DNA of 62,326 nucleotides from an uncultured Caulobacterales bacterium (lineage in GTDB: Bacteria; Pseudomonadota; Alphaproteobacteria; Caulobacterales; Caulobacteraceae). The translations under genes were made by a program, and so were the position numbers. Of this stretch, positions 15,906 to 38,782 are shown piece after piece. The notes under the pieces are model-generated. The model worked only from the letters and a program-made list of their open reading frames with translations, was not told the origin of the DNA and did not search any database. How positions within the stretch are numbered: the first letter of the stretch is position 1; every line of letters begins with the position of its first letter. The stretch is from positions 1-62,326 of the forward strand of contig CAIOJR010000247.1 of assembly GCA_903858685.1 (NCBI GenBank), read 5' to 3'.

Positions 15906-17261
15906 CTAGCTTTGGCTCAGAGCCGCCTTGCGCTGGCGCTCAATCTGGCGCGCCAGCACAAGGCACAGGACCACAGCGGGCAGGCCAAAGGCGGCCGCGC
16001 CCAGATAGAAGGCGGCATAGGCGTGCATCAGCCCCCGCCCCTGCTGCAGGCTGTCGACCACGGCGCCGGAAAACCCTTTCAGCGTCTTGCCGGTAAAGGC
16101 CAGGGCCGAGGTCAGCACCGCATATTGCGTCGCGGTGTAGCCCAGAGTGGTGAGGCTGGACATATAGGCGACCAGCGCGACGCCGGAAAAGCCGATGGCG
16201 AAGCTGTCAAAGCCCATCACAGCCTCGAACAGACCCGGTTGAACGCCGTTCAGCGCCAGAATCGCAAACAGGCCTATAGCCGGTGGCTGGATCACAGCCC
16301 CGATGATCAGGGTCCGCGCATAGCCGATCCGCACGGCGCTCAGGCCGCCCAGGCTGACGCCGACCACTGTGCACCACAGGCCGATCGTGCCCCTGACCAG
16401 CCCCACCGTGGCCTTGGATAGCCCCAGATCCTTGTAGAACGGATTGGAGATCGGCCCGCGAAGATAGTCCGGAAGGTGGTACAGCGTAATGGTCAGCAGC
16501 ATGATCACGGCAAACAGTCCGTGATCGCGGAAAAACGAGATGAATGGCCCGATAATGGCGTCGTAAAGACCACGCGGAGACAGGAGGGGCGCCGCCAGTG
16601 CACGGGCCTCAAGCGCCTCTTCGGCCTCTCGCGGCTCCTTCGCGCAAAGGACGGCGACCATTCCCACTGCGGCCAGCGCGGCCATGATCCCATAGCTGAT
16701 CGGCCATCCCATCGCCTGGGCCAGAAGCAAAATCAGGGATTCGGTGACCAGAAGGGCTGCACGATAGCCAAGACTATAGGCCGAGGTCAGAAGCCCCAGC
16801 TCGTCACCGCTCTCGGCGATCTCGATCCGCCAGGCGTCGACGACAATGTCCTGCGTCGCGGAGGCGAAGGCCACCACCACAGCCGCCGCCGCGAGGGGCG
16901 CGAGGCCGCCATCCGGGCCGATCATGGCCATGGCGCCCAGGCCGAGGCCGATCACGATCTGGGCCAGCAGCATCCAGCCCCGTCGGCGCCCCATCAGGCC
17001 CGTCAGGGGCGCGCCCACCCGGTCGATGATCGGCGCCCAGAGAAATTTCAGCGTATAGGCCAGCCCGACCCATGAGGCGAAGCCGATGGCGGTCAGACTG
17101 ACATGGCCCTCACGCAGCCAATAGCCCAAGGTGTTGCCGGTGAGCAGGAAGGGCAGGCCTGAAGAAAATCCAAGCGCGGCCATGACCGCGACCCTGGGCC
17201 GGCGAAGCGCCTTGAGCGTATCCATCATCCGACGTTTTCGCCGGGTCGGGTGAGAGGTCAT
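15906..17261 (-). CDS. AmpG-family MFS permease (muropeptide transporter-like)
   Basis: A 451-aa inner-membrane major facilitator with about 12 hydrophobic segments. The N-terminal half has the AmpG signatures GFSSGLPFLLTGNTLGYWLREG and LKFLWAPIIDRVGAP, followed by FASATQDIVVDAWRIE, which is strongly conserved in AmpG permeases that import anhydromuropeptides during wall recycling. ATG 17261 gives a short basic leader; an internal start at MMDTLKALRRPRV is also possible. It converges on maeB. No beta-lactamase or recycling gene is adjacent, so the substrate is by family only. Confidence 0.85.
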   Translation of the reverse strand: MTSHPTRRKRRMMDTLKALRRPRVAVMAALGFSSGLPFLLTGNTLGYWLREGHVSLTAIGFASWVGLAYTLKFLWAPIIDRVGAPLTGLMGRRRGWMLLAQIVIGLGLGAMAMIGPDGGLAPLAAAAVVVAFASATQDIVVDAWRIEIAESGDELGLLTSAYSLGYRAALLVTESLILLLAQAMGWPISYGIMAALAAVGMVAVLCAKEPREAEEALEARALAAPLLSPRGLYDAIIGPFISFFRDHGLFAVIMLLTITLYHLPDYLRGPISNPFYKDLGLSKATVGLVRGTIGLWCTVVGVSLGGLSAVRIGYARTLIIGAVIQPPAIGLFAILALNGVQPGLFEAVMGFDSFAIGFSGVALVAYMSSLTTLGYTATQYAVLTSALAFTGKTLKGFSGAVVDSLQQGRGLMHAYAAFYLGAAAFGLPAVVLCLVLARQIERQRKAALSQS

Positions 17262-17333: not shown

Positions 17334-18950
17334 TTAGCGCGCGCCAATCTGGCTGCGTCGCCTTTTTCGCACCGGTGAGCGCTTCGGCGGCTCCGACAGA
17401 CGCGCGATGATCGCATTGAGGGCGGTCGGCGCGATGGGCTTTGTCAGAAAATCGTCCATGCCCGCCTCCAGACAGGCGCGACGATCATCCTCGAACGCAT
17501 TGGCCGTCAGGGCGACAATGGGTGTGGTCAAACCCTGGGCGCGCAGACGACGTGTCGCCTCCAGCCCATCCATGCCCGGCATGCGGACATCCATGAGGAT
17601 CAGGTCATATGGCGCCATGCTGGCGGCCTCCACCGCCTCCTCGCCGCTCGCGGCGCGATCCACGGTGCAACCGGCCTTGGACAAAAGCGCTTTGGCCAGT
17701 AGGGCGTTCACAGCGTTGTCCTCCGCAAGCAGGACCCGCAGGCCCAGCGCCGCCGGATTGACACCGTCACGCTCGTCTTCCCGCAAGGGCGCCGCTGCCT
17801 TGGCCTTTTCCGTCTCTATCCCCAAAATGGCGTGCAGACGCGTAATGATCGATACGCGCCGAAGGGGCTTGATCAGATAACCCTGATATCCCGCATCGCG
17901 ATAACGGCTGATCTGGTCGCGATCTTCCGGCATCAACAGGACAAAGGCCGCAACGCCGCGTGGAGGCCGCTCGATCATATCCGGCGACCGGTCCGAGGGG
18001 TCCACGAGCACAGCGTCATAAAATGGATCCACCCGCTCGAAATCGCTGACCAACACAGCACGGGCCCCCGATGCGCGGATCTGGGCCAGGGCGGCTTCTC
18101 GGACGACGGGCGAGGATGAAATGACGGCCAGGGTCCGCCCAGACAGTGGCGGTTTCGGGATGGTTGCGGCGTCGGGAAGATCAAAATCCGCCTCCATCCA
18201 AAACTCCGCGCCCCAATAGTCGTCTTCGGTTTGACGATGATTGGTCACGCCGATCTCAGCGTTCATCGCGTCGGCGATACGGCGCACAATGGCCAGCCCC
18301 AGACCCGCGCCGCCCGCCTCAAGGCCCGCTTGTTCCTGCACGAACTCTTCAAAGATGCGCTCAGCCACATCAGGCGAGACGCCAGGTCCGGTGTCGCGCA
18401 CTGATAGGCGTATGCGCGCACGCTTGGCCAGGACCGACACAGTTCGCGCCTGGATCAGGACGCCGCCGCCCGCCGCCCGCGCCGCCGTCATCTTCACGGC
18501 ATTGCCGGCCAGATTGAACAGCACCTGCCGCAACCGACCGTCATCAGCCAATATGCGCGGGGCTTTGCGATCCATGGCCCAGGAAATGTCCAGTCCAGCC
18601 GCATGAGCGCGCGGAGACAAAAGCTCCACCACGCCCTGCAGCAGGTCTTCGACGTCCACGGCGTTGCACTCCACCTCAACCCGCCCAGATTCCAGCTTGG
18701 CCAGGTCGAGTATGTCATTAACCAGACTGAGGAGATGGTCACCGCTCGCCCGGAGCGACGCCAGATAGGCGCGCTGTGTATCGTCCAACTGGGTCTCGGC
18801 CAAAAGCCCCGCCATGCCCAGAACCCCATTGAGGGGCGTGCGAATTTCGTGACTGAGCGTGGCCAGGGCGCCCGCGCGGGCGAGCAGCCCGGTCTCGGAT
18901 GCGGGAACACGATTTGCGCTGGATGCGCGATCTGGATGCGGTGACGCCAT
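17334..18950 (-). CDS. Soluble hybrid histidine kinase, pseudo-receiver plus receiver (ShkA-like)
   Basis: 538 aa, no membrane segment and no PAS domain. Domains in order: dimerisation/phosphotransfer with His34 in LSHEIRTPLNG; ATPase domain with N-box around FNLAGN (146-150), DTGPG (186-190) and GAGLGLA (214-220); a degenerate receiver (about 272-378) lacking the acidic pair on strand 1 (ISSS instead); and a complete receiver (about 405-520) with LLAEDN, Asp454 and Lys504. The pseudo-receiver has Arg344, Tyr358 and Arg364, spaced like R324/Y338/R344 that I recall as the c-di-GMP contacts of Caulobacter ShkA, and the linker holds an acidic-Arg patch (EDERD, 391-395). The ShkA assignment is inference; the hybrid kinase call is firm. 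Confidence 0.9.
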   Translation of the reverse strand: MASPHPDRASSANRVPASETGLLARAGALATLSHEIRTPLNGVLGMAGLLAETQLDDTQRAYLASLRASGDHLLSLVNDILDLAKLESGRVEVECNAVDVEDLLQGVVELLSPRAHAAGLDISWAMDRKAPRILADDGRLRQVLFNLAGNAVKMTAARAAGGGVLIQARTVSVLAKRARIRLSVRDTGPGVSPDVAERIFEEFVQEQAGLEAGGAGLGLAIVRRIADAMNAEIGVTNHRQTEDDYWGAEFWMEADFDLPDAATIPKPPLSGRTLAVISSSPVVREAALAQIRASGARAVLVSDFERVDPFYDAVLVDPSDRSPDMIERPPRGVAAFVLLMPEDRDQISRYRDAGYQGYLIKPLRRVSIITRLHAILGIETEKAKAAAPLREDERDGVNPAALGLRVLLAEDNAVNALLAKALLSKAGCTVDRAASGEEAVEAASMAPYDLILMDVRMPGMDGLEATRRLRAQGLTTPIVALTANAFEDDRRACLEAGMDDFLTKPIAPTALNAIIARLSEPPKRSPVRKRRRSQIGAR

Positions 18951-18994: not shown

Positions 18995-20536
18995 TCACAT
19001 GTGATTCGGGGGCGCCAGGCCGGCCGGTTGTGTGCGGCGATAGATCAGCGCTTCAGCCAGATGCAGCCTGCGCACGCGGTCTGATCCGTCCAGATCCGCA
19101 ATCGTGCGGGCCAGACGCAGGGTGCGCGTCCACCCTCGCGCCGTCAGGCCGCCCGATTCCGCCGCGCGGTTCAACAGAGCCTGGCCGGGCGCATCCAGGG
19201 CCGCAATCCGCTCGAGCAGACGCCCCTCAATCCGAGCATTCAGTCCCGATCCTGGCGCGAGGCCATGCGCCTGGGCCCTCTCTTCCTGAAGGTCCCGCGC
19301 CGCGCTGACGCGCATGGCGGCCTCGGCCGTGCCCTCCGCCGGGGCCGGCAGGGACAGGTCGGACGCCGTGACTGGCGGCACATCCACATGCAGGTCGATG
19401 CGATCCATCAGGGGGCCGGATATGCGGCCCTGATAGTCGCTCTGACACCGCGGCGCACGCCCGCAATAACCCTTCCCTGCGCCGCCATGACCGCAGCGAC
19501 AGGGGTTCATGGCGCCGACCAGTTGCACGCGTGCAGGGTAGCGCACATGGGCGTTGGCCCGCGCCACCATCACCTCCCCCGTTTCCAGTGGTTGACGCAG
19601 ACTGTCCAGCACCTGAGGCGGAAACTCTGGCAGCTCATCCAGGAACAGGACGCCATTGTGGGCCAGCGACACTTCGCCCGGCTTGGCGCGCGCGCCGCCG
19701 CCGACCAGAGCCGCCATGCTGGCCGAGTGATGCGGACTGCGAAACGGCCGGGCGCGGGTCAGGGCGCCGCGCGCGATCAGGCCCGCCACCGAATGGACCA
19801 TGGAGGTTTCCAACAGCTCCCGCGCGGACAGGGGCGGCAACAGTCCTGGCAGGCGACTGGCCATCATCGACTTTCCCGAGCCAGGCGGACCGCAGAACAG
19901 GAGGTTGTGGCCGCCCGCCGCAGCGACCTCCAGAGCCCGCTTGGCCTGTTCCTGACCCTTGACATCCTTCAGGTCGGCGCCGGGCGGCGGGTCGAGGAGA
20001 GTTCCCGGCTCCGGCGGACTGATGACCTGAGTCCCCCGAAAGTGATTGATCAGAGCGATCAGGGAGCGCGCCGCCAGAATGGGCGCGTCGCCCGCCCAGG
20101 CCGCCTCCGGTCCGCAGGCTTCAGGGCAGATCAGACCAAGCCCCATGGCATGGGCGGCGACAGCGGCAGGCAAGGTCCCCGCCGTGGGCGCCAGCCGACC
20201 ATCCAGGCTGAGCTCGCCAAAGGCCATCCAACCCGACAGGGCGTCTTCGGGGATGACGCCCATGGTCGCCAGCAATCCCAGGGCAATGGGCAGGTCGTAA
20301 TGACTACCCTCCTTGGGCAGGTCCGCCGGGGCCAGATTGACCACCAGACGTTTGGCGGGCAGAGCCAGACCCAGCCCGGCAAAGGCGGCGCGAACCCGTT
20401 CGCGACTTTCCGCGACCGCCTTGTCTCCAAGACCCACGACGATGAAGGTGACCTGACCGGAGCTGATCTGCACCTCTACATCCACCCGACGGGCGTCCAC
20501 CCCCTCGAAGGCCGCTGTCACAATTCGCGCCGCCAA
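18995..20536 (-). CDS. comM: ComM/YifB-type Mg-chelatase-like AAA+ ATPase
   Basis: Hexameric AAA+ protein; in Vibrio, ComM is a helicase that promotes branch migration during natural transformation. 513 aa. The N-terminal domain has VDVEVQISSGQVTFIVVGLGDKAV and LPKEGSHYDLPIALGLL. The ATPase domain has Walker A GPPGSGKS, Walker B GVLFLDELPEF, and PCRCGHGG in the family's zinc-like insertion. The start is TTG 20536: GGAGG at 20542-20546 lies five bases upstream and the protein then begins at the family position (AARIVTAAFEGVDARR). A TTG at 20548 would overlap that ribosome site. It lies 44 bases before the hybrid kinase on the same strand. Confidence 0.93.
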   Translation of the reverse strand: MAARIVTAAFEGVDARRVDVEVQISSGQVTFIVVGLGDKAVAESRERVRAAFAGLGLALPAKRLVVNLAPADLPKEGSHYDLPIALGLLATMGVIPEDALSGWMAFGELSLDGRLAPTAGTLPAAVAAHAMGLGLICPEACGPEAAWAGDAPILAARSLIALINHFRGTQVISPPEPGTLLDPPPGADLKDVKGQEQAKRALEVAAAGGHNLLFCGPPGSGKSMMASRLPGLLPPLSARELLETSMVHSVAGLIARGALTRARPFRSPHHSASMAALVGGGARAKPGEVSLAHNGVLFLDELPEFPPQVLDSLRQPLETGEVMVARANAHVRYPARVQLVGAMNPCRCGHGGAGKGYCGRAPRCQSDYQGRISGPLMDRIDLHVDVPPVTASDLSLPAPAEGTAEAAMRVSAARDLQEERAQAHGLAPGSGLNARIEGRLLERIAALDAPGQALLNRAAESGGLTARGWTRTLRLARTIADLDGSDRVRRLHLAEALIYRRTQPAGLAPPNHM

Positions 20537-20627
20537 GGTCGCCTCCAATGCAATTCATCAGCGCGCACAGAGCCGCAGGCGCGGCCAGCTCGCAATCAGA
20601 CTTGCAGGGGGTAGACGATATGTCGCG

Positions 20628-38131: not shown

Positions 38132-38242
38132 GGTGGAGACAGTGGCACGGCGGTTGCATTCTGAGCCTCGAAACGAGAAAGATTGTATTGCCCGCCCGCG
38201 CGCTCCATCGCCGATCGGGCCGCCAAGAGGATAGATGACGTG

Positions 38243-38782
38243 ATGAACGAGGCAGGTTCCGCCCTCAATGCCCGCGCCGCCATAGCGGAAGACTTTGCAC
38301 GCTCGGAGTTGTTTGACCGCACGTTCCGCGAGGGCATGGACATCGTCGAGGCCGCCGCCACCTATCTGGATGGTCCGGGTCGCCAGGAATCCAAGCTCCT
38401 GTCCCGCAACGCCGCCCTGGCTTACGCCAGTGAAAGCATGCGTCTGACCACGCGCCTGATGCAGGTGGCGTCCTGGCTTCTGGTCCAGCGCGCTGTGCGG
38501 GAAGGGGATATGAGCTCGATGGACGCCTGCGATGATCGTTACCGCATCGGCCCCAAACCCGGCGCCCGCGGCAATGGAAGCCTGCAACCGCCGACCGAGG
38601 CCCGTGCGGGAGAGCCCCTGCCGAACGGCCTGACCGAGTTGATGGAACGGTCCGAGCGGCTCTATGACCGCATCTCCCATCTGGACCGTCGCATGTATGT
38701 CGAGGGCGAAGCGGACGCGCGCCCCAATGCCGTCCTGTCCCAGTTTGAACGCCTGCGCGCCGCCTTTGACGGGCCCTTATAA
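38243..38782 (+). CDS. rcdA: RcdA family ClpXP adaptor (DUF1465)
   Basis: In Caulobacter, RcdA works with CpdR and PopA to deliver CtrA and other proteins to the ClpXP protease at the swarmer-to-stalked transition. 179 aa, all-helical: FARSELFDRTFREGMDIVEA, then YASESMRLTTRLMQVASWLLVQRA as the central helix, and LMERSERLYDRISHLDRRM. About 35 residues between helices two and three are flexible. ATG 38243 (or GTG 38240) follows AGAGGA at 38226-38231. It converges on nrdB with a shared hairpin terminator. Confidence 0.9.
   Translation: MNEAGSALNARAAIAEDFARSELFDRTFREGMDIVEAAATYLDGPGRQESKLLSRNAALAYASESMRLTTRLMQVASWLLVQRAVREGDMSSMDACDDRYRIGPKPGARGNGSLQPPTEARAGEPLPNGLTELMERSERLYDRISHLDRRMYVEGEADARPNAVLSQFERLRAAFDGPL

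Follow-up and report, generated by a model that had tools for sequence, protein, structure and literature searches.

A shkA orthologue with a conserved R/Y/R triad and linker lock in another genus of the Caulobacter family

The hybrid histidine kinase ShkA of Caulobacter crescentus is the closest described system to the protein analyzed here. According to the accessible part of PMC7010744, the activation of ShkA by c-di-GMP and its DDR lock are established. The ShkA mutant that lost c-di-GMP binding is Y338A, and suppressor mutations hit D369 and R371. Orthologues are shown in the same text for Caulobacter, Phenylobacterium, Asticcacaulis, and Brevundimonas. In an excerpt of PMC12700997, shkA stands among the regulators that are largely conserved across the family, and the available text of PMC12632262 cites ShkA as a case in which a pseudo-receiver binds a ligand. 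In BarA/GacS-type kinases, too, a pseudo-receiver and a receiver come after the HisKA and HATPase domains. These kinases carry membrane and sensor parts.

The stretch of DNA analyzed here (the window, 62,326 nucleotides) comes from a genome of 3.87 Mb in 279 contigs, which belongs to the family of Caulobacter in a different genus. The ShkA family and its mechanism are already published, and the window protein is a well-kept member. With a probability of roughly 0.88, the window carries the shkA orthologue of a Caulobacter family member, whose product is gated by c-di-GMP as in C. crescentus and relays to ShpA and TacA. The developmental c-di-GMP switch of Caulobacter would then persist in one more genus of the family, together with its partners and its lock.

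The shkA gene, its protein, and its neighborhood

The features of the locus are collected in Table 1. The original prediction described a soluble kinase with a DHp domain (H34), an ATPase domain, a pseudo-receiver, and a full receiver, in this order and with no sensor part. The order was confirmed by the Pfam domains together with the full-length match to ShkA. Pfam recognized no sensor domain, and just 26 residues stand N-terminal to HisKA. In the Pfam scan of the 538-aa protein, no domain was recognized in the Rec1 stretch either, though this stretch aligns along its entire length with ShkA Rec1.

Table 1 Positions of the shkA gene, its protein features, and the associated genes and sites in the window. 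The names of both shkA neighbors are presumed.
Feature	Position	Strand	Evidence or context
shkA orthologue, ATG start, encoding a soluble hybrid histidine kinase of 538 aa	17334..18950	-	ORF, 6qrj match, C. vibrioides best match
DHp domain, HisKA, residues 27-89	18684..18872	-	Pfam PF00512, E 6.6e-20
H34, predicted autophosphorylated histidine, SHE motif	18849..18851	-	His in all aligned rows covering the position
ATP-binding CA domain, HATPase_c, residues 136-254	18189..18545	-	Pfam PF02518, E 2.2e-20
Rec1 pseudo-receiver, residues 266-380	17811..18155	-	ShkA alignment; first Foldseek match of the model is 6qrl
R344 (ShkA R324)	17919..17921	-	alignment
Y358 (ShkA Y338)	17877..17879	-	alignment
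R364 (ShkA R344)	17859..17861	-	alignment
D392-E393-R394, DDR-type linker lock (ShkA D369-D370-R371)	17769..17777	-	alignment
Rec2, full receiver, residues 406-515	17406..17735	-	Pfam PF00072, E 2.9e-32
D454, predicted phospho-acceptor of Rec2 (ShkA D430)	17589..17591	-	alignment
AmpG-like transporter gene, conserved downstream neighbor	15906..17261	-	tblastn against relatives
comM/yifB-like gene, conserved upstream neighbor	18995..20548	-	tblastn against relatives
Exact sigma-54 -24/-12 pattern	38143-38158	+	upstream of DUF1465 gene; shuffles expect 0.05
DUF1465 gene, PF07323	frame 38183-38782		just behind a DUF1192 gene

The two receivers were compared by aligning Rec1 on Rec2. The acidic pair of Rec2 (E410-D411) is replaced by S278-S279 in Rec1, in agreement with the claim that the first receiver lacks its acidic pair. 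T482 of Rec2 is replaced by L339, and D454 and K504 retain the Rec1 counterparts D317 and K361. Rec2 itself is complete, with E410, D411, D454, T482, and K504.

Among all solved chains, the best match of the protein was 6qrj, the full-length Caulobacter ShkA (E 1.5e-132, residues 28-516), and the next match stood at 2e-55. R344, Y358, and R364 were found where the original prediction had placed them. The alignment with ShkA puts them exactly on R324, Y338, and R344, so that the claimed ShkA spacing of the triad holds and the three residues fall on positions of the ShkA ligand site. In the ShkA structure paper, R324 and R344 are said to contact c-di-GMP directly. The conserved spacing results from homology and is therefore not independent evidence. 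Further ShkA pairings in the same alignment are D387 with D411, D430 with D454, and K480 with K504.

The acidic-arginine patch EDERD (391-395) had been proposed to lie where ShkA has its DDR motif, and D392-E393-R394 indeed aligns with this motif. Both lock residues that were hit by suppressor mutations, D369 and R371, are kept in the window protein, and the middle residue is changed from D to E. C. crescentus ShkA (6qrj, 6qrl) and the window protein thus share the domain order, the R/Y/R triad, the D-x-R lock, the complete Rec2, and the gene neighborhood, with ShpA and TacA in the genome. They differ in the linker, which is D-E-R instead of D-D-R in the window protein, and in the N terminus, which is about 11 residues longer.

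Structure models were also compared with solved chains. The first PDB match of the full-length AlphaFold2 model (mean pLDDT 74.1) was 6qrj. The separate Rec1 model has a mean pLDDT of 76.7, and the confidence of both models is middling. In Foldseek, the first match of the Rec1 model was 6qrl (E 8.3e-08), the structure of ShkA Rec1 with c-di-GMP; the second-best protein came at 5.4e-04. ShkA was not singled out when the Rec1 model was aligned with VIA: 6qrl and 6qrj had a Z of 8.5, the best row 9.5, and rank 50 8.1. Residues 317-334 of Rec1, between the third and fourth strands, are free of helix in the full-length model, and the separate Rec1 model has two three-residue turns near this stretch. 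Helix alpha3 is missing from ShkA Rec1 in the accessible text of PMC7010744.

Among the solved chains, no unrelated hybrid-kinase group matched more closely, and 6qrj stood first both by sequence and by model. By E-value, BarA is the best NCBIfam match, but the protein scored 293.6 bits on the BarA equivalog NF008318 against a cut-off of 890. The generic BarA/GacS label was rejected on this curated cut-off and on the full-length ShkA match. It is highly improbable that the protein belongs to the generic BarA/GacS-type hybrid kinases, with a pseudo-receiver that would be structural or serve another ligand and a triad that would be a trait of the wider receiver family. Pseudo-receivers between the CA domain and the receiver are described as widespread in the available part of PMC7010744, which fits such a kinase; the full-length match, the linker lock, the neighborhood, and the partners all favor ShkA instead.

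Orthology was examined from both sides. With the C. vibrioides orthologue as the query, the window gene was the top match in its genome, at 443 bits, with the second-best match at 148. The identity to the C. vibrioides orthologue is 50% to 53%. The forward search into C. vibrioides used Rec1 only, and the Rec1 query found one place in the window's genome and one place in C. vibrioides. The AmpG-like gene adjoins shkA in 27 of the 29 relative loci, in all six loci of a second set, and also in C. vibrioides; three of these six are the same genes as in the 29, and L057 stood outside the neighborhood test. The comM-like gene lies directly upstream of shkA in all five same-genus loci. In all six loci of the second set it is also upstream, at a distance of about 2 to 6 kb, on the opposite strand in one of them and with the match running into the locus edge in two. 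The best match in both directions and the shared comM-shkA-ampG neighborhood show that the window gene is the shkA orthologue, and the domain order, the key residues, and the partners in the genome were found alongside them.

The R/Y/R triad and the linker lock in other kinases

The triad was searched for in control receivers, namely 55 receivers with a usable lysine/arginine-proline motif out of the 56 that were recognized by the Rec2 profile in other kinases. None of the 55 had the full R/Y/R at ShkA spacing. At single positions, Arg at -14 was found in 1 receiver, Tyr in 13, and Arg at +6 in 7. A chance spacing of R/Y/R is ruled out by this control.

A Rec1 profile was then matched to the genomes of the class. 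Matches were found in 37 of 385 genomes, and 32 of the 37 lie beyond the order. Thirty loci were kept from this search, with 25 of them beyond the order (L207-L213, L215-L232). The triad positions of these 25 read R/Y/R in 18, Q/Y/R in 2, R/F/R in 2, and K/Y/R, R/W/R, and R/H/R in 1 each. The sample carries a bias and is not an independent one, since the search profile itself includes the triad and a single genus supplied several of the loci. By eye, the full acidic pair is kept in six of the 25 (L220, L224, L226, L227, L229, L230), of which five have R/Y/R, and these six are therefore not pseudo-receivers by that mark. The other 13 of the 18 R/Y/R domains are without the full pair, also by eye. 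This recurrence beyond the order, in some cases with the full acidic pair, is a further point on the side of a generic BarA/GacS-type kinase. The triad as a mark of ShkA only was rejected on the 18 of 25 domains of this biased sample, and the triad alone cannot identify ShkA.

The triad kinases from beyond the order, such as L207-L213, have R/Y/R at the same columns, in a receiver-like domain between the CA domain and the terminal receiver. In contrast to the window protein, they are longer, and a clear DDR-type linker was not seen in their aligned rows. A PAS domain passed the Pfam cut-off in four of seven scanned kinases of this kind and fell below it in one more. Of 50 kinases with a downstream receiver, 1 showed a long unrecognized gap, too few for an unbiased set of other pseudo-receivers.

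These sequences suggest that the triad marks a broader group than ShkA. Either the reading of c-di-GMP would be wider, or the triad would be necessary but insufficient. It is conceivable, but rather doubtful, that an R-x13-Y-x5-R face on a receiver-like domain serves widely as a c-di-GMP input module in hybrid kinases of the Alphaproteobacteria, PAS kinases from beyond the Caulobacter order among them; the full acidic pairs seen in some of the domains make this slightly less likely. If true, PAS kinases with the triad would combine another signal and c-di-GMP within one protein. The triad kinases from beyond the order provide a concrete list of candidates for c-di-GMP binding.

Within the order, the Rec1 query matched 46 of 60 genomes. 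Besides the window's own genome, these are 29 of the 35 others from the same genus or family and 16 of 24 from other families of the order. All five other genomes of the window's genus were matched. The weakest matches (E near 1e-4) may be non-orthologues and stand outside the alignment; the matches of G042, G043, G048, G051, and G059 and a second one in G014 did not enter it. The alignment comprised 46 distinct genes from 52 rows, after the removal of four duplicates, the 6qrj row, and the distant L058. The triad was R/Y/R in 40 of these genes, R/W/R in 5, and R/F/R in 1, which is a broken gene. D-E-R was the commonest linker (33 genes), and D-D-R was found in 6. R/Y/R is present in all 39 genes with either linker, and the single R/Y/R gene without the lock is L200.

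In L193, L195, L197, L199, and L201, all from one other family of the order, the triad is R-W-R and no D-x-R lock was seen in this alignment. These genes may represent a natural variant of ShkA control, and the order-wide alignment thus offers natural variants for tests of the mechanism.

The R-W-R genes without the lock indicate that ShkA control can drift. By the same course, the window gene could be a true ShkA orthologue that kept the fold and lost the control by c-di-GMP in its lineage, so that the kinase would be constitutive or differently gated. This is very unlikely, as both the triad and the D-E-R linker are preserved, in the window as well as in all five same-genus genomes.

A split shkA was seen in L196 (741-2191), from the single-contig genome G016 of the same family. 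DHp, CA, and Rec1 end in one frame, and Rec2 continues in another; a sequencing error may be the cause. In C. crescentus, a kinase that has lost Rec2 is no longer coupled to c-di-GMP, as described in the accessible part of PMC7010744.

Phosphorelay partners and the proposed mechanism

Orthologues of tacA and shpA were sought in the same genome, and both are present. The ShpA candidate is a 125-residue ORF with an Hpt match, and it matched PDB 2ooc, a chain named histidine phosphotransferase, with an E of 1.2e-23. Its C. vibrioides counterpart matched the same chain with an E of 1.2e-71. This chain is presumably ShpA. The reference list of PMC5590869, in its accessible part, includes a paper on a ShpA crystal structure.

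Four strong matches and three weak ones to sigma-54 activators were found in the genome. One of the four strong activators passes the curated FlbD cut-off and is thus a gene separate from the TacA candidate. Two others lie a few kilobases apart on one contig and were taken as NtrC and NtrX by their position. The fourth is the TacA candidate; among the matches listed, it shares 73-74% identity with the non-FlbD activator found in four relatives. Its C. vibrioides counterpart has 488 aa from its ATG and an Asp at 54. Similarly, the candidate of the window's genome has an Asp at 54 when started at the second ATG. A TacA D54E mutant is included in the available text of PMC7010744, which fits an Asp at 54. 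The name of the putative TacA orthologue therefore comes from the exclusion of FlbD and of the NtrC/NtrX pair, plus the Asp at 54. Nine GGDEF matches were also found in the genome, and one of them, a 456-aa ORF with two receivers and a GGDEF domain, has the PleD layout.

The original prediction of a c-di-GMP-gated kinase feeding a TacA-type regulator is supported at the level of sequence. From the aligned residues we infer ligand binding, and gating of the window kinase by c-di-GMP is very likely. By analogy with C. crescentus, the D-E-R linker would help to keep Rec2 and Rec1 packed against the kinase core at low c-di-GMP, and autophosphorylation would be blocked. When c-di-GMP from a PleD-type cyclase rises, it would bind the alpha4-beta5-alpha5 face of Rec1 via R344, Y358, and R364. 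The bound Rec1 would free the kinase core, and H34 would be phosphorylated. From H34, the phosphate would move first to D454 of Rec2, next to the ShpA histidine, and finally to the receiver of TacA, the sigma-54 activator. Phosphorylated TacA would start the swarmer-to-stalked program.

Sigma-54 sites upstream of spmX and DUF1465 genes

An SpmX-like ORF is present in the genome and is cut by a contig end. Sites resembling sigma-54 promoters were scanned upstream of SpmX-like genes in 11 genomes. Two mismatches were found in two genomes, three in two (one of which is C. vibrioides), and four or more in seven; because the domain match served to set the gene starts, small offsets in the scan are possible. 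In the same genus (L255-L258), a clear site upstream of spmX was missing in three of four genomes (four or more mismatches), and the fourth had two mismatches. Most same-genus spmX-like genes are thus without a recognizable sigma-54 site, despite the TacA orthologue in the window's genome, and spmX, one known output of TacA, finds no clear support as an output here. The mostly unrecognizable spmX promoters of the genus are also a point in favor of a lost c-di-GMP control. A common activator motif was not found between the spmX and DUF1465 promoters, where only two spmX promoters were compared.

The exact sigma-54 pattern in the window lies upstream of the DUF1465 gene. The -24/-12 pattern was not found on either strand of other loci that total 443 kb and partly overlap. 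Upstream of the DUF1465 genes of 15 genomes, including the window, the site was exact in 11, had one mismatch in 1 and two mismatches in 2, and was absent in 1. The DUF1465 gene is a candidate target of TacA, FlbD, or NtrC.
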